53,719 nucleotides of DNA from Candidatus Levyibacteriota bacterium (lineage in GTDB: Bacteria > Patescibacteriota > Microgenomatia > Levybacterales > UBA12049): the NCBI GenBank assembly GCA_016180725.1, contig JACPAR010000015.1:1-53719 (forward strand), written 5' to 3'. Positions 4,721 to 40,114 of this stretch are shown here, one piece after another (position 1 is the first letter of the stretch; each line of letters begins with the position of its first letter). The notes beneath the pieces are model-generated. The model made no database searches and was not told where the DNA came from. It was given only the letters and a program-made list of their open reading frames with translations. The translations under genes were made by a program, and so were the position numbers.

Positions 4721-4774
4721 CGCATTTAAAACAAAAGCTGAGCAGTTTATTCATCCTAGCACAGCTTTTTTTCC

Positions 4775-32254: not shown

Positions 32255-33511
32255 TCACCCAATAATATACAATTCCTTCACTGCTCTGGTTACTGCTGTA
32301 TATAACCATCTGCTCCAAAGCTCATCTTCCCAGTAGGCTGATGGTTCTTCAAAAAGCAAGACTCTGTCTGCTTGGGATCCTTGGGATTTATGGACAGTTA
32401 AAGCATAACCAAAATCAAACCTATCACCAATCTCTTTGTAATGAATACCTTTGACCTCGGTTAAATATTTTTCTTGATGAAATTGGTACCTGGAGATTCT
32501 ACCTTGGTATGGAATATCTTCACCATGGAATAATATCTCGGCTTCATACCAGTGTTTATCAGATGGAGTAAGTTTAATTAGTTTACCAATCATGCCATTA
32601 TAAATTGGTTTACTTAAGTTTTTGTAGTTATTCTTCAAACAAATAACCTGCTCACCAATAACTGGTTCATCTGATGAAAAATCTAGCCTACTTCTAATTT
32701 GTTGGTTAAGTTTGACCCTGGTAGCATTTCTACCACAAAGAATCAGGGTATTGTCATCAAAACTGTTAAATATCTTATCAATTATTTCCTCTGCTTCTGG
32801 GCTGTGTCTAGCAACTTTTTTAACAGTTGAGGAGAAATTTTGAAATGGAATTTTACCAGTAGTTCTGGCTAAAGTAGCCACTTGTAGAATTGGGTTATCC
32901 TGGGCATGTCTATGAATGGTTTCTAATCTAAGTTGTGGTTTATCCATTAAGCTGTAACTGTCTCCGACTGGTGGTAATTGTCCATGATCCCCAATAGCAA
33001 TGATGGAAACTCCGTATGAGCAAATATCTTGCCACATATCTTGGGTTATCATTGAAGCCTCATCAATAATTATTAAATCTGAATCAATAGCACTTACTTT
33101 TTTCCAACCAACAATATGGCCATTTTTATCAACCTTTGGTTTATACATTAAAGAATGAAGAGTTCCAATACTGTCTCCTTTGAATATAGACTTTTGCTCA
33201 ATAAGTTTACTTTTTAATACCTGGCTGGCTTTACCAGTAAAGCAGGCAAATGCAACAACAAGATTAGGTAATTGTTTTTTCAGGAGAGTCCGCAAAATTG
33301 CAGTAATAGTAGTTTTTCCTGTACCAGCATATCCACCTACTGTAATATACCCATATTTAGGATTTCTGACCCAAGAAAGTAAAGATTCTAAGACAAACTT
33401 TTGGTCAGAAGATAAATGGTCTTCTTCCTCAGTCCAAGGGTCATAGGCTTTAGTAAAAGTCTTTCTGATTTCATCAACACCGTAAGCCTTTGATTTAACA
33501 GCAGGGATCAT
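32255..33511 (-). CDS. Dda/RecD-like superfamily 1 DNA helicase
   Basis: 418 residues. Motif I GGYAGTGKTTITAIL, motif II DLIIIDEASMI, motif III AIGDHGQLPPVGDS, and at the C-terminus ALTVHKSQGSQADRVLLFEE (motif V) and LYTAVTRAVKELYIIG (motif VI). The size and layout match phage T4 Dda and the RecD C-terminal core rather than full RecD2. A 5'-3' DNA helicase is expected. Overlaps the SWIM gene by 4 bp, part of a three-gene minus-strand unit that looks mobile. Confidence 0.88.
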   Translation of the reverse strand: MIPAVKSKAYGVDEIRKTFTKAYDPWTEEEDHLSSDQKFVLESLLSWVRNPKYGYITVGGYAGTGKTTITAILRTLLKKQLPNLVVAFACFTGKASQVLKSKLIEQKSIFKGDSIGTLHSLMYKPKVDKNGHIVGWKKVSAIDSDLIIIDEASMITQDMWQDICSYGVSIIAIGDHGQLPPVGDSYSLMDKPQLRLETIHRHAQDNPILQVATLARTTGKIPFQNFSSTVKKVARHSPEAEEIIDKIFNSFDDNTLILCGRNATRVKLNQQIRSRLDFSSDEPVIGEQVICLKNNYKNLSKPIYNGMIGKLIKLTPSDKHWYEAEILFHGEDIPYQGRISRYQFHQEKYLTEVKGIHYKEIGDRFDFGYALTVHKSQGSQADRVLLFEEPSAYWEDELWSRWLYTAVTRAVKELYIIG

Positions 33512-34266
33512 GGAGAAATTATATCATCATGTTTGTCGCTAATCAGTTCCAAAAGTGGCTTTTCCCAACCAAAACAAGTCTCTCTGTTCTCTAATTGTCG
33601 AAATGTTGGTGTACATTTTGGATCAAGTTTGGTGTATTGTATGAGTACCTCAACAGTTTCCCGAATAAATTCACCAACTGTTCCGTCAGAATCATCAACA
33701 CCGCCTGAGATAAGTTTTTTATCAAGCCGCAGGAGCAAATCTACCAAAAGTTGTGTGGTCTGTTCATTTACTGGTAAATTAGACACAATAGCTGACAAAC
33801 GTTTACACCCTTCTTGCAAAGAATTTTGGTACGCAAACCAGGTGCGGGATGGGCCATTGTATCCCTTTATGTATCGCAAAGCTTCGGTAAAAGATTTTTT
33901 AATCACAGCCAATTCTTCTTTTTCTAATTTTCCTAATTTGCCGCTACAGCTTGGAGAATCTATTAGTTTCTTATCTTCATCTGTCAGTGGTTTGCCATAC
34001 ATAACCACGAAAAGAGCCAATGCTACCATATGCTTGCAAAGGGTATCACTTTGCCCCAGATAGCAGTTACAGTGACCGTAGTCGTATCGGCGTGCCTCTA
34101 CAGATACCCGATATGGCTTGGTGCCAAGTACAACCGCTGCATAAGATCTAATCCCTTCCTCAAATTGGGTTACCTTCCCGCTTTCATATAACACAACTGC
34201 TTTCTCAAACGTTGGTTGATCAGTGGCAAATTTAATTTTACTTAGATCATAGTCTGGTCGCTGCAT
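33508..34266 (-). CDS. SWIM zinc-finger protein
   Basis: 252 residues. The SWIM motif C-x-C-xn-C-x-H is seen as HCNCYLGQSDTLCKHMVALA (about 71-90), with a preceding basic strand typical for SWIM domains that bind DNA or partners. The rest is helical with no other known motif. It lies 7 bp after the KilA-N gene and overlaps the helicase gene, so the helicase and this protein probably work together in DNA metabolism of the element. Confidence 0.75.
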   Translation of the reverse strand: MQRPDYDLSKIKFATDQPTFEKAVVLYESGKVTQFEEGIRSYAAVVLGTKPYRVSVEARRYDYGHCNCYLGQSDTLCKHMVALALFVVMYGKPLTDEDKKLIDSPSCSGKLGKLEKEELAVIKKSFTEALRYIKGYNGPSRTWFAYQNSLQEGCKRLSAIVSNLPVNEQTTQLLVDLLLRLDKKLISGGVDDSDGTVGEFIRETVEVLIQYTKLDPKCTPTFRQLENRETCFGWEKPLLELISDKHDDIISP

Positions 34267-34273
34267 TTTTTAT

Positions 34274-35113
34274 TTATTTCAATTTTTTTATTCGTAGAAA
34301 AGCTTTGCTTATTGATGTATTTCCAACAAGCGATTGCATTTGTGCAATAGCAATCTGGTTTAACTGGGTTAAACGCTCACTTTGGGGTAATCCACGACGA
34401 ATGAGTTCAGCATTTATTCCTTCCAAATTTGCCAACACCACCAGTTGAGTTACATCTGAGTAGTCGCGGATATTGCCTTCTTTCCTGGGATTTCCGTCTC
34501 TCCACTCTTTGGCAGTTTTACCAAACAAAGCGACGTTTAAAATATCCGCTTCTGAAGCATAAATAACTTTGGCCTGACTCTCAGTAACTGACTTCGGGAT
34601 TAAGTTTTCTTTGATTGAATCTGTATGAATAAGATAATTAATTTTTGTTAACTGGCGTTTAATATCCCAACCCAAAGCTAATCTTTCGTTTTCCTCAGAT
34701 TTAAGTCGCTGAAATTCTTTAATCAAGTAAAGCTTAAATTCTGCACTTATCCAGGAAGCAAATTCAAAAGCAATATCTTTGTGTGCGAATGTTCCACCTC
34801 CATATCTACCTGATTTTGCAATAATCCCAATCGCATTGACTGAAAGAACCCATCTTTTGGGAGTTAAGGAAAAACTATTTAAGCCTGCCTCTTTTATTAA
34901 CCCATCGAATTCGATGGGTTTAAAATTTGGGTTGTTGATTCGTTCCCAAATACCTAAGAATTCTATAGTATCTCTATTTCTCATCCAGTTTTGGATGATA
35001 TAGTCAGTTCTTTCCTTATCTTTGTACCTTGCAATATCAGTGAGGGAGATGTAATCTATTTCATTTTGTTGAAAGGTATACACTTTTATGCCTTTGGTTA
35101 TAATTTTTTTCAT
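34274..35113 (-). CDS. KilA-N domain protein
   Basis: 279 residues. The N-terminal half matches KilA-N: YISLTDIARYKDKERTDYII, then WMRNRDTIEFLGIWE, RWVLSVNAIGIIAKSGRYGG and GTFAHKDIAFEFASWIS, a DNA-binding domain common in phages and large DNA viruses. The C-terminal half (about 150-279) is helical and carries KTAKEWRDGNPRK, as in bacterial relatives annotated as KilA-N plus a DinD-like tail. It heads the minus-strand unit with SWIM and helicase genes and supports a phage or plasmid origin of the block. Confidence 0.85.
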   Translation of the reverse strand: MKKIITKGIKVYTFQQNEIDYISLTDIARYKDKERTDYIIQNWMRNRDTIEFLGIWERINNPNFKPIEFDGLIKEAGLNSFSLTPKRWVLSVNAIGIIAKSGRYGGGTFAHKDIAFEFASWISAEFKLYLIKEFQRLKSEENERLALGWDIKRQLTKINYLIHTDSIKENLIPKSVTESQAKVIYASEADILNVALFGKTAKEWRDGNPRKEGNIRDYSDVTQLVVLANLEGINAELIRRGLPQSERLTQLNQIAIAQMQSLVGNTSISKAFLRIKKLK

Positions 35114-35337
35114 ATTTTTAAAGCAATAGAATTTATTTTAATTATGACAAATTCGCCACAGTTAAAATCCAGTTTCTCCTGCTGCTATTATAGACGTAGA
35201 CTATAACAAGCTACGCTTATTATACAGGATTTTAGATCCGTAGGATCGCAAGATTTTCTTATTCAAACTAAATCAAAATGGCTATTGCATTTGTACGATC
35301 AGTTTGGTTCAATTAAGGTAGTCATAAGTTTTGATTT

Positions 35338-35368
35338 TTGACATTTGAGTTTTGAATTTTTTTATATG
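35338..35368 (+). promoter_or_regulatory. Candidate promoter of the surface-protein gene
   Basis: TTGACA at 35338-35343, then TATATG at 35363-35368 with a 19-nt spacer (or TTTATA at 35361 with 17). The start point would fall at or next to the ATGs at 35366/35375, so the message might be leaderless. No ribosome site is visible. Confidence 0.4.
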
Positions 35369-35374
35369 TATGTT

Positions 35375-38300
35375 ATGGAATATCTTCAGAAATTTAGACA
35401 AGGTAAGCCCGACAGCTCACAGCTCACAGCTCACAGCTCACAGCTCACAGCTCACAGCTCACAGCTCACAGCTCACAGCTCACAGCTCACAGCTCACAGC
35501 TCACACTAAAGTTTAGGCGTCAATTCCCAAAAATCAAGAGGCAAACCCTCACTGTCCTCTTAATTATTTCTTTATTAATATCTCAACTCACTTCTCTTTT
35601 TGTTCCCTCAGTTTATGCCGCAAGTTCACCTTGGAGCCAAACTAATTGGAATGGTGGGAGTGGGCAGACTGCTTGGAGTGATACAACCAAGTATTCTTCT
35701 GGCTCAAGTGTTGATGCCACTACTACTTCTGGACAAGTAACATTGACTAATACAGAAAAATTTTCTAATACAGGGTTTGAATCAAACCTGACAGGGTGGA
35801 CCGTATCAGGCACCACCAATGATTTAACTTTGCAGCCTGATGGAGCTACTGGAATTGATACCTGGATATTATCAGTTGGCACAGGTGGTAGCGCTGGGTA
35901 TCAGAATACCAATAACGGTGCGCAGAATGTTTTTCAAGTGGGTCTCACAGTATCAGGCACAGATATTGAACGTGGACTTATAAAATTAGATCTTTCTTCT
36001 ATACCCTCAACAGCGAAGGTTTCATCTGCCACTCTTTCAATATATGCTACTAGTCAAGTAGCATCTGGAAATGCTCAAACATTTTCTGTTTACAGAATGC
36101 TCCAAAGTTGGGTGGAAGGAACAGGGAATTTTAGCACTACTGGGGATGGAACCACATGGTTAACCTATAATGGTGTCAGCAATTGGCAAACAGCAGGAGG
36201 GTCAGGGTCTAACGATCGAGAGACTACTGCTATCGGTTCTAGCGCATTCGCAAGTTCTGAAACTTCTGGTGAGTTCAAGAATTTCAGCTTGACAGCAAGT
36301 GCAGTTCAAGAATGGATTGATGGAACGATGACTAATAATGGGGTTATGATTAAGAGTGAGGAAACAGGAACAAATAGATTTACATTTGCTGCAAGTGATA
36401 ACGCTACTGCTGCTAACCGGCCTAAGTTAGCAATAAGCTACTATAACTACTCACGAGATACATCCATCAAATATGGAGGAAGTAATGCTTCGGCACAAAT
36501 AATCACACCTTCAGGTGGTACTAATAATTTTCTTCAAACTGTCAATGTGGGAGATACAAATACTTACAATTTAGTTTCTTATGCTTATACAGATGGTAGT
36601 GCCATAACTTCTTCTGATGTAGAGCTTTTTTATAACGGTTCAACGATTGCAACAACATATACTTCTGTTGGTTCTGGTTGGTATAAACTTACTGGAACTT
36701 TAACAGGAGCAAATGCGTCAAGGGTTTATGGAGTTCAAGTAAAAGCAAATAAAACTGTTTATGTAGACAACTTTAGTTTGAATAATTATGCTTCTTCCGG
36801 AACTTTGACCTCATCTATTTTTGACAGCGAATTTACAGCAGGTGCAGCTTGGGGTACCCTAACTTATACGGCAACTACTCCAACTAATACAACAGTTTCA
36901 GTAAAAATGAGGACTTCTAATTCATCTTCAATGTCTGGGGCTACAGCTTTTGGTTCATGTACCGCAATAACAAGTGGTTCCGACATTTCTTCTAACACTT
37001 GCGTAGCTGATGGGCAAAGATATATTCAATATCTCCTGACATTATCGAATAGCAGTACAGAAGTTACACCAACTTTTTCAGATTTATCACTAACATTTGC
37101 AACCTATGATACTGACGCACCATCTATCTCTTTAACAGCTTTAACCCCTGACCCAAATTCTGATAATACGCCAACTCTATCGGGAACAGCTACTGACTTA
37201 ATAGGCACTGTTTCCAATGTCCAGTTTCAGATGGATGCAACTTCTGGCTCCTGGACTGCTTGTACAGCGGATGACGGCAGTTTTGATGAAGTGACAGAGA
37301 CATTTACATGTACTCCTTCTGCATTATCTGACGGTAGTCATACGATGTATGTCAGGGCTACCGACAGTAACAGCAATACGACTGCTTCGGGAAGTGAATC
37401 TTCTGACACTTTTACCATTGATGTGACAGCCCCGGCTTCTTTTGACCTGGATTCTCCTGGCCATGAGAGTTACACTACCAATGAGCGACCCACTTTTAAG
37501 TGGAAGGCAACCACCGACCCTTCGGCAGGCTCAGGGCAAGTGCCTTCAGGTTTATCCAGCTATACCCTGGAAGTAGACAATGGGGATACGGGAGACTTTA
37601 GTATTACGGGTATCCCTACCAGCAGGACTACAGATTATGACACCAATAAATATCTTGTCCATTATGATAACTTTTCAGATTCAGATTCCAGTAATAATTA
37701 CATCTCAATTTATACTAAATCACACAGTGACTGGAGTTCCTCTGAAAACTATGGCAAGTTAAAAGAAGGCTCAAGATCCTGGAAGATTAAAGCCATTGAT
37801 GCCGCAGGTAATGAAAGGTCAGAGGGCAGGACTGTGATTGTTGATTTAACAGGCCCGACATTATCCTCCCTTTCCTCATCTGGCTCGGCAGGCAGCAAAG
37901 ACGGTTATTTTCTGGTGACCAACCAAAAGCCAAGCCTAACAGGCACTATTACTGATAATTATTCTCCTGATAAGGTAGAAATCTCCATCTACAAGGAAAA
38001 CTACTTTCTGGGTGCCATCACCTCCAAAGAGCTGTTTACTTCCATTACTTATTCACTCTCCAACAGCAGTAATAATAAATCCCTCTCTTTTTCCATTCCT
38101 GTCCCTGATTCCCTGGACTTCGGCAGTTACGAAGTAAATATTAAAGGACAAGACAAAGCAGGCAATAAATCCGGCGCTTCTACCATATATTTTAAGGTTT
38201 TGACTGCCCGGCAGGCAAAAGAACTTTTGCAGGGTAAACTTTCAGAAAAAGAAAAGAAAACAATTCAGGAGAGATCACAGGTATCTCTGCCGGAATTGGA

Positions 38301-39243
38301 GAAAAAAGCAGTTTTAAGACGGGAAAAAGAAGCAGCGGAATTTGATAAGTTAATTACCCCATTCTCCCAAACATTCTCTGTCATCCCCAACCTGATTGGG
38401 AATCTATATAAATCATCTACTGCGGGACTCACGATGACAGGAAACGCCATTAGCCATGGTTTCCTCGAAGTGACAAATGGTATAGGTAAAGGTTACAACA
38501 ACCTAGCTCAAAAAGCGCCTGGGTTGGTAAAAAATACCATGTTAGCTTTAGAAAATGGAGTAAATACGGTTAGCTCAACTATCAGTAACACTAACCAAGT
38601 AGCGCTTAATACTCTTAATAAATCTCAAGGGAAGTTAGAGAATAAAATCAGCAAGAGTTCTAGAGAAACAGCACAAATTTTTAATTCTCAATTATCAAAT
38701 GTTAAAAACATAGCAGGCGGCACCACTAAAGTCATTGCGAGCGCAAGCGAAGCAATCTCTAATTCGTTGGCCAGATCGCAGGAAGAAACCCAAAAACAAA
38801 TCGCAAAAACTCACCAGAATACAAGCGATGCTATTAAGGATAAAGGTCAAAGAATAAGTAAAGGAATAAATCTTGCTTTCCGCTCTTTCCAAAAACCAGT
38901 CAATGATACAACTGGTTTCCTGGACAGAACTAAAGTATGGTTTCTAACTTTTGGATCAATAGTTATAGATCCAAATCCAACAACTATTTCTGGTGTTGCT
39001 ATTGATGAGTTAGGAAAAGATTATGCAGTTGTTTCCTGGAAAACAAACCATTATGCTTGGGGTAAAGTTAATTATGGTAAAGATTTAACTTATGGGAAAG
39101 AAGTACTTTTAACCAAAAGAGAGAAAGTCCATGTTGCCCGCTTAACAGGGCTTAAACCAGGGGAAAAATATTATTTTGAAGTAATGTCCCAGAACAAAAA
39201 TTATGCTTATGACGCCTACTATAGTTTTGAGACTAAAAAGTAG
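35375..39243 (+). CDS. Large surface protein behind a heptamer repeat, currently out of frame
   Basis: From 35404 to 39243 one frame is open. It starts within the repeat, then gives a signal peptide (KFRRQFPKIKRQ, hydrophobic core, PSVYA-AS) and about 1200 residues: a DNRLRE/CBM96-like domain (ERGLIKLDLSSIPSTAKVSS, AVQEWIDGTMTNNGVMIK), a second beta-sandwich, an Ig-like domain (PTLSGTATD), an FN3-like one, a charged helical region (RQAKELLQGKLSEKEKK), a long amphipathic stretch and a C-terminal FN3/PapN-like domain (YAVVSWKTNHYAWGKVNYG). No ATG/GTG/TTG lies in this frame before TTG 35743. The ATGs at 35366 and 35375 read into the repeat in another frame and stop at 35509. With 14 or 11 units the frames join into 1291 or 1284 residues. 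Confidence 0.8.
35413..35503 (+). repeat. 13 tandem copies of the heptamer CAGCTCA
   Basis: 91 bp of perfect CAGCTCA units without interruption. Three units code for the heptapeptide SSQLTAH in two frames without a stop. Because 7 is not a multiple of 3, each gain or loss of one unit shifts the reading frame between the upstream ATG and the downstream surface-protein frame. No spacers, so not CRISPR. Confidence 0.95.
37516..37542. repeat. Small palindromic element in the surface-protein gene
   Basis: CCCTTCGGCAGGCTCAGGGC reads in frame as PSAGSGQ between KATTD and VPSGLS. Same style as the TTCGACTTCGCTCAGG family. Confidence 0.6.
38380..38439. repeat. In-frame MITE-like element in the surface-protein gene
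   Basis: 60 bp with GTCAT...ATGAC ends; CCCCAACCTGATTGGG lies near its left end. Translated VIPNLIGNLYKSSTAGLTMT. The length is a multiple of three. Confidence 0.65.
38731..38759. repeat. Second MITE-like element in the surface-protein gene
   Basis: GTCATTGCGAGCGCAAGCGA followed by AGCAATCTC, the left half of the family in ychF. Translated VIASASEAIS. GCGAGCGC and GCAAGC fold back. Confidence 0.65.
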
Positions 39244-39262: not shown

Positions 39263-40114
39263 ATGCCAAACGAATTTATACGCAATCTAAATATAAATCA
39301 AGAGAATAAGACTCCTGGAAGGTGGCCCGCTTCGACTCAGCGAGGCGAGCCAAAAGGACTCCTTCCAGGTGGCGTTGCCATGCCGGTTATCACAATCCTG
39401 GTATATTTTCTGACTAAAAATCCTTTAACTGGCAACCTAAAATTACAGTTCACGCTTTTAAGCATCATAGCTTTGTTAGTTTTTGGGTATTTTCTTAAGA
39501 AAAAAGGGCTATCTGTTATTCAAAATGTAGAATTTAATTATCTTCTAACAGTTGCTGTGCTGTTTTTGATTGCCTCCACCGGCTGGTTTTTCTCTCCCTT
39601 TTTCTTTGTTTTATACCTTTGGGCAATATTTTTGGCTTTTATCTTTTCACCTACGGCTTCCTTAGGTTTTATTATTACCCTGGTAATCCTTTTTTCTTTT
39701 AATATTGGACAGGTAGACTTAGCTTATGACTTTATGATTGTCTTATCATTACTCACCACAATCCCGTTAAGTCTATATCTTAGAAAAGAATATCTTCGGC
39801 TTAAAGAATCGGAAAAAGAAATTTTGGTACTGCAAAAACAGAAAGAAAATTTTAACAGCATAGTTGAGGAAGTGTTAGCCAATAAAATCAGCAGTATTGC
39901 AGCGAATTTAAGACAGCCGATTAATGATATTAAGCAGTTAGCTTTTAGAATGGGAGATATTAAGGAAAAACAAAAATTAGAAACTGACAGGGAAAGAATA
40001 CTTGCTTCCTCAGAAGAAGCCCTAAGGGTTCTAAAAGAATTTGAAGAACAATCAACAGGAAAGAAATTAGTAGTTAACCCCGGCTCTCCTCAGGCGGCTC
40101 CAGGAACTTCTTAA
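39263..40114 (+). CDS. Six-helix membrane protein with histidine-free DHp domain
   Basis: 283 residues. About six membrane helices (roughly 38-180) are followed by a cytoplasmic coiled coil and an H-box-like segment SSIAANLRQPINDIKQLA. In a histidine kinase this reads SHELRTPLxAI; here the His position is Ala. No ATP-binding domain follows, so it cannot autophosphorylate. It may dimerise and act as a sensor or phosphatase-like partner for the response regulator encoded convergently, whose end it overlaps by 41 bp. A 9-bp inverted repeat (CCTGGAAGG/CCTTCCAGG, 39314-39369) codes part of the N-terminus; ATG 39380 is an alternative start after it. Confidence 0.65.
   Translation: MPNEFIRNLNINQENKTPGRWPASTQRGEPKGLLPGGVAMPVITILVYFLTKNPLTGNLKLQFTLLSIIALLVFGYFLKKKGLSVIQNVEFNYLLTVAVLFLIASTGWFFSPFFFVLYLWAIFLAFIFSPTASLGFIITLVILFSFNIGQVDLAYDFMIVLSLLTTIPLSLYLRKEYLRLKESEKEILVLQKQKENFNSIVEEVLANKISSIAANLRQPINDIKQLAFRMGDIKEKQKLETDRERILASSEEALRVLKEFEEQSTGKKLVVNPGSPQAAPGTS
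39314..39369. repeat. Palindromic element at the start of the membrane DHp gene
   Basis: Perfect inverted ends CCTGGAAGG (39314-39322) and CCTTCCAGG (39361-39369) around a GCTTCGACTCAGCGAGGCGA core. Translated PGRWPASTQRGEPKGLLPGG. Confidence 0.7.

Follow-up and report, generated by a model that had tools for sequence, protein, structure and literature searches.

A putative phase-variable surface-protein gene behind a heptanucleotide repeat in a Levyibacteriota genome

Could a bacterium of the Candidate Phyla Radiation (CPR) switch a large surface protein on and off by means of a tandem repeat? Contingency loci, in which such switching takes place, have been described chiefly in pathogens and commensals that are adapted to a host. 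Here, we describe a candidate on a DNA stretch of 53,719 nucleotides from a very small, uncultivated Candidatus Levyibacteriota bacterium (GenBank assembly GCA_016180725.1, contig JACPAR010000015.1), which is referred to below as the window. An array of CAGCTCA units is found there between a group of start codons and the signal peptide of a surface-protein gene, and the locus is probably a translational contingency (phase-variation) locus. Four properties that are predicted for such a locus can be recognized in the sequences, namely a unit number that differs among relatives, a pure array, an intact gene body and repeat units whose length is not divisible by three. The same build had been proposed in an earlier note on this DNA, made from the letters alone, and it has gained support from the unit numbers in relatives, the purity of the array, the ratio of nonsynonymous to synonymous substitution rates (dN/dS, about 0.2), and the 4-bp and 2-bp repeats that are found ON in some relatives and OFF in others.

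The array is located at 35412-35505 on the forward strand (94 bp, period 7, 100% matches), where Tandem Repeats Finder (TRF) reports 13.43 perfect copies, in agreement with the 13 units counted earlier. It is by far the strongest tandem repeat of the window, with a TRF score of 188 vs. 59 for the next best, it is unique in its own 769-kb assembly, and it contains no stop codon in any of the three frames, the earlier note having stated this for two of them. Three ATG codons precede it on the same strand. ATG 1 (35366-35368), whose surroundings ATGTATGTYATGGA are kept in the homologous locus L027 and in two leader copies of L032 described below, and ATG 3 (35375-35377) are in frame a, while ATG 2 (35370-35372), which the earlier note had missed, is in frame b. 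The frame of ATG 1 and ATG 3 passes into the array and ends at TAA 35507-35509, and the assembled register consequently contains a 47-codon open reading frame (ORF) at 35366-35509, reading MYVMEYLQKFRQGKPD(SSQLTAH)n...SH before the stop. The surface-protein frame itself (35407-39243, forward strand, 1,278 codons) is open to 39243 as claimed previously, although it begins at 35407 rather than at 35404, since 35404-35406 is TAA. Frame reading confirms that its first ATG, GTG or TTG is TTG 35743, which lies inside the mature part of the protein.

The tract unit is not a multiple of three, and it sits between the ATGs at 35366, 35370 and 35375 and the signal peptide. The resulting registers can be tabulated. 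With 13 units, the assembled state, none of the ATGs shares the frame of the signal peptide, which corresponds to OFF. With 14 or 11 units, that is, one unit more or two units fewer, the ATGs 35366 and 35375 are in frame, and the product counted from 35375 has 1291 or 1284 aa, respectively, exactly as calculated before. With 12 or 15 units (one fewer or two more), a case that the previous calculation had left out, ATG 35370 is in frame and the product has 1288 or 1295 aa, respectively. Consequently, two of the three registers of the window locus are ON and one is OFF, and the assembly displays the OFF register. Initiation in the window appears to be mostly independent of Shine-Dalgarno (SD) sequences, as an SD-like motif precedes the start in just 3 of 38 genes; therefore, its absence before the ATGs of the leader is nothing unusual.

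In the proposed mechanism, translation would start 5' of the heptamer array and reach the signal peptide 3' of it, and slipped-strand mispairing would most likely add or remove 7-bp units in living populations, by which the reading frame would rotate. The two ON registers may produce the protein at different levels, because different starts are used. ON cells would presumably make a secreted protein of roughly 1,290 aa with Ig- and FN3-type domains, which may bind to a host, a substrate or a phage, for instance as an adhesin. The tract would be read in every frame as SSQLTAH repeats, and (SSQLTAH)n would make up the n-region of the signal peptide, on the cytoplasmic side, where the length of the tract would probably matter little.

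In search of relatives, 84,980 prokaryote species genomes were scanned with the signal peptide and the body of the protein, and family members were found in Daviesbacteria, Blackburnbacteria, Roizmanbacteria, Beckwithbacteria and two unplaced genomes. Next, 374 class genomes were searched with a profile built from the signal peptide and the mature N-terminus. Extending the N-terminal profile search to more families or orders yielded no new members, and no additional relatives were obtained from a viral collection. Four matches to the heptamer in IMG/VR were discarded as they have no leader in common with the window, and the loci L100 and L065-L067 are unrelated chance matches. Among the 374 class genomes, a CAGCTCA array of 3 units or more occurs in 2, both times at the surface-protein gene. 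Wandering intergenic heptamer repeats, such as those of Beggiatoaceae or Cyanobacteria, are therefore rejected as an explanation, as the array is not scattered: its own genome has a single copy, and in the class it is confined to one locus in 2/374 genomes.

The Blackburnbacteria locus L027 has the same leader as the window (ATGTATGTCATGGAATATCTTCAGAAATTTAGG...), with 41/47 nt alike before the array and 35/40 nt after it, and carries 7.43 perfect units (52 bp). Thus, the homologues compared are not uniform at 13 units, a comparison that the earlier note had called for. The long frame of L027 likewise has no start at all, and its frame offset is equal to that of the window. In the same Blackburnbacteria genome, L032 contains two more leader copies without the array, which run in one frame from the ATG into the conserved n-region LTLKLRHKFPKI; therefore, the start and the n-region are parts of a single protein. 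A truncated gene follows one of the two copies, and the other has extra inserted sequence before a second signal peptide. The copies lie in duplicated promoter-leader segments (L032 735-1021 and 2700-2918), and different small insertions are found in them exactly at the array site of the other copies, with the frame kept in both. The arrays of the window and L027 are both perfect while their flanking genes differ by a synonymous divergence (dS) of 0.58-0.77. With dS halved per lineage, arrays inherited without turnover should have collected some 30 substitutions over 94 bp in the window and about 17 over 52 bp in L027, and 0 were observed. Since the arrays are pure despite diverged flanks, slippage turnover or re-acquisition must maintain the purity, which would imply that turnover is ongoing.

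Different repeats are located at the same place in other members of the family, which makes a genetic on/off switch likely. A second leader (ATGTATGCAAACACTGAAAAAAGTGAG...) with ACTC repeats is common to L029 (Blackburnbacteria) and L039 (G115, another family). The two leaders are nearly identical; the tract has 3.75 units in L029, which is OFF, and 11.75 units in L039, which is ON from the second ATG. A third leader (ATGATATGC...) with GA repeats is common to L030 (Beckwithbacteria, complete genome), L031 and L033, with 9.5 units and OFF in L030, and 6.5 units and ON in L033; L031 was left out of the frame comparison owing to an N gap at the signal peptide. ATGs in two frames precede the tract in all array leaders (window, L027, L029, L039, L030 and L033), and the heptamer and tetramer tracts contain no stops in any frame. 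The ACTC tract is limited to the surface-protein gene in eight surveyed genomes, and so is the GA leader sequence in the class sample. In 180 kb of the window plus relatives, 8 of the 10 strong non-triplet repeat runs fall at start regions of the surface-protein family, where about 0.02 would be expected. These 8 include L028 (Roizmanbacteria), where 3.6 units of a GTATTAT heptamer (4741-4765) overlap the start codons, with one ATG in every unit; since a normal start is present downstream, this locus was not taken as a switch. Relatives with a normal start after the repeat would have refuted the proposed switch, but the two loci that do have a normal start, L026 and L028, lack an array of this sort between that start and the signal peptide. 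A further (GA)9.5 tract was noted on the minus strand of L029 (7879-7897), directly after several ATGs and before a small reading frame, and is possibly a second kind of switch locus.

Some observations weigh against switching by unit number. The 13 units of the window and the 7 units of L027 share a register, which has a chance of 1/3 and would equally result from a fixed, non-switching arrangement. The ON/OFF difference between L033 and L030 is caused by a 1-nt indel before the GA tract and not by the number of GA units. The differences in unit number (13.43 vs. 7.43 and 11.75 vs. 3.75) are comparisons between species, not strains.

It may be asked whether the assembly has simply miscounted the repeat. 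With a real number of 12, 14 or 15 units, the gene would just be ON and the repeat would be no switch. An array of 94 bp is near the limit of what short reads can span, and assemblers may drop or add units. However, independent tracts that are easily spanned by reads are also out of frame, such as those of L029 (15 bp), L030 (19 bp, in a complete genome) and L027 (52 bp), and the design of the locus and the differences in unit number among relatives would stand even with a wrong count in the window. Therefore, we regard a miscount as unlikely. Alternatively, the leader may be a fixed untranslated or upstream-ORF region, with the protein beginning at a non-standard codon (ATC, ATT or CTG) after the array or being reached via programmed frameshifting. 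The leader DNA is indeed well conserved, and three OFF loci (window, L027 and L029) have an equal frame offset relative to ATG 1. However, the offset of L030 differs, and L033, L039 and the leader copies in L032 are in frame from an ATG. Inspection revealed no -1 slippery heptamer, which together with offsets that vary between loci argues against frameshifting, and no consistently placed common near-cognate start; the nearest candidate after the array, ATC in KIKRQ, is not kept from one leader group to the next. Consequently, both forms of a fixed leader seem hardly probable. Neutral decay, in which repeat expansion broke the gene and a pseudogene is forming, would fit the assembled state without an in-frame start and the finding that L032 has copies of this leader and N-terminus that are truncated or broken, yet it is very improbable given the absence of stops in 1,278 codons, a dN/dS of about 0.2 and the fact that several lineages share this state while their repeats differ.

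A translational contingency locus would find its closest mechanistic counterparts in lic2A of Haemophilus influenzae and neuO of Escherichia coli K1. The former is a contingency locus with a 5'-CAAT tract (PMC4235727) that is preceded by starts in two frames (PMC3116884). The window locus likewise has predicted initiation codons in two of three frames 5' of its tract, whereas lic2A has a tetranucleotide unit, encodes a lipopolysaccharide glycosyltransferase of a Gammaproteobacterium and has been proven in culture, and the product here would be a secreted multidomain protein. In neuO, carried by the CUS-3 prophage, a 5'-AAGACTC heptamer in the 5' coding region is translated as repeat peptides, and ON or OFF is decided by the number of units modulo 3 (PMC13001214). 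Both loci share a coding heptanucleotide tract whose unit number modulo 3 sets the frame. However, neuO encodes a cytoplasmic O-acetyltransferase and has one ON register in three, while the tract described here lies in a signal-peptide n-region behind starts in two frames. Since neuO is OFF in 65.6% of complete genomes (PMC13001214), assemblies in the OFF state are not unusual. Heptamers also govern the adhesin genes hmw1A and hmw2A of H. influenzae (PMC2651432), but that tract acts in the promoter, with graded transcription and no frame switch.

In the literature searched, which left most subscription journals outside, no report of SSR-driven phase variation (SSR, simple sequence repeat) in CPR, Patescibacteria, Saccharibacteria or Microgenomates was found, in line with the earlier statement that such loci are not described for CPR bacteria. 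The nearest CPR report concerns Gracilibacterium BD1-5, in which a predicted surface protein has hypervariable PTD repeats, possibly arising by slipped-strand mispairing (PMC6851277). Like the window locus, it combines a CPR bacterium and a predicted surface protein with tandem repeats; however, its 9-mer repeats are in frame inside the protein and vary synonymously, so that they alter length or codons and cannot switch the frame. Therefore, while systems of this type have been described before, the occurrence of one in CPR bacteria, and a family with a switch from three different repeats, appear to be new. If the switch is real, episymbionts with sub-megabase genomes would vary a large surface protein stochastically, which would offer a direct handle on how CPR episymbionts evade phages or alter their attachment to hosts. 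As an assembled OFF register has no valid start, genes of this kind will be truncated or overlooked by gene callers. We would give even chances to a wider picture, in which phase-variable, head-swapping surface proteins move between CPR (Microgenomatia) lineages as mosaic cassettes, and the switch was built at least three times (7-bp, 4-bp and 2-bp repeats) behind double-frame starts, giving ultra-small symbionts stochastic surface variation against hosts or phages.

As for transcription, a TTGACA at 35338 had been taken as the promoter of the locus. This assignment is doubtful, since the TTGACA lies within a degenerate TTTTGAA-type interspersed repeat (35329-35360, forward strand, TRF) that is absent from the corresponding place in L027. 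Matches to this heptamer element are found in 223 of the 374 class genomes, often at several candidate places per genome. The conserved element is instead TTGCATTTGT at 35283-35292 (forward strand), with TTGCAT at 35283, and a CTTGCATTTG-like motif lies 5' of all array leaders compared. It is likely the -35 region of the real promoter.

By inspection, the core of the signal peptide is at about 35548-35610, with cleavage near VYA-ASS at about 35619, followed by a conserved AASSPW-QT-W motif. Then come a DNRLRE-like head (PF06848), an Ig-like stalk (Big_13), a long helical region and a C-terminal FN3-like domain. The head, around residues 120-300 of the frame counted from 35521, is exchanged between relatives, being DNRLRE-like (PF06848) in the window, LamG in L026, and DUF2341 plus LamG in L029, while the Ig-like stalk is conserved. 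Such a make-up would suit a surface protein that binds through a head open to exchange; the AlphaFold model of the protein is poor (mean pLDDT 41). Compared with L026, L027 and L033, the long frame has a dN/dS of about 0.2, a rough ratio because dS is near saturation, and, judging from this ratio, the gene is not dead and is under purifying selection.

The gene is a mosaic, whose 5' block is like L027 while its last 100 codons have 91% DNA identity to L026. The gene downstream (39263-40114, forward strand, 283 aa) is also closest to L026, where it follows the surface gene too (tblastn 83%). On the other side, the genes for an SF1 helicase and a 252-aa protein (32255-34266, reverse strand) are syntenic with L027, at 93% amino acid identity (dS 0.77) and 84% (dS 0.58), respectively. 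They are part of a conserved block (window 32255-35113, L027 1577-4651) that consists of the Pif1/RecD-like SF1 helicase, the 252-aa protein and a KilA-N (window) or Bro-N (L027) protein. This block beside the switch gene, common to several families at up to 93% identity, is likely a mobile block. In addition, ORFs that resemble large serine recombinases by inspection are located near two family members (L029 9112-10626 and L033 3321-4856), and they may explain the transfer of the surface-protein family.
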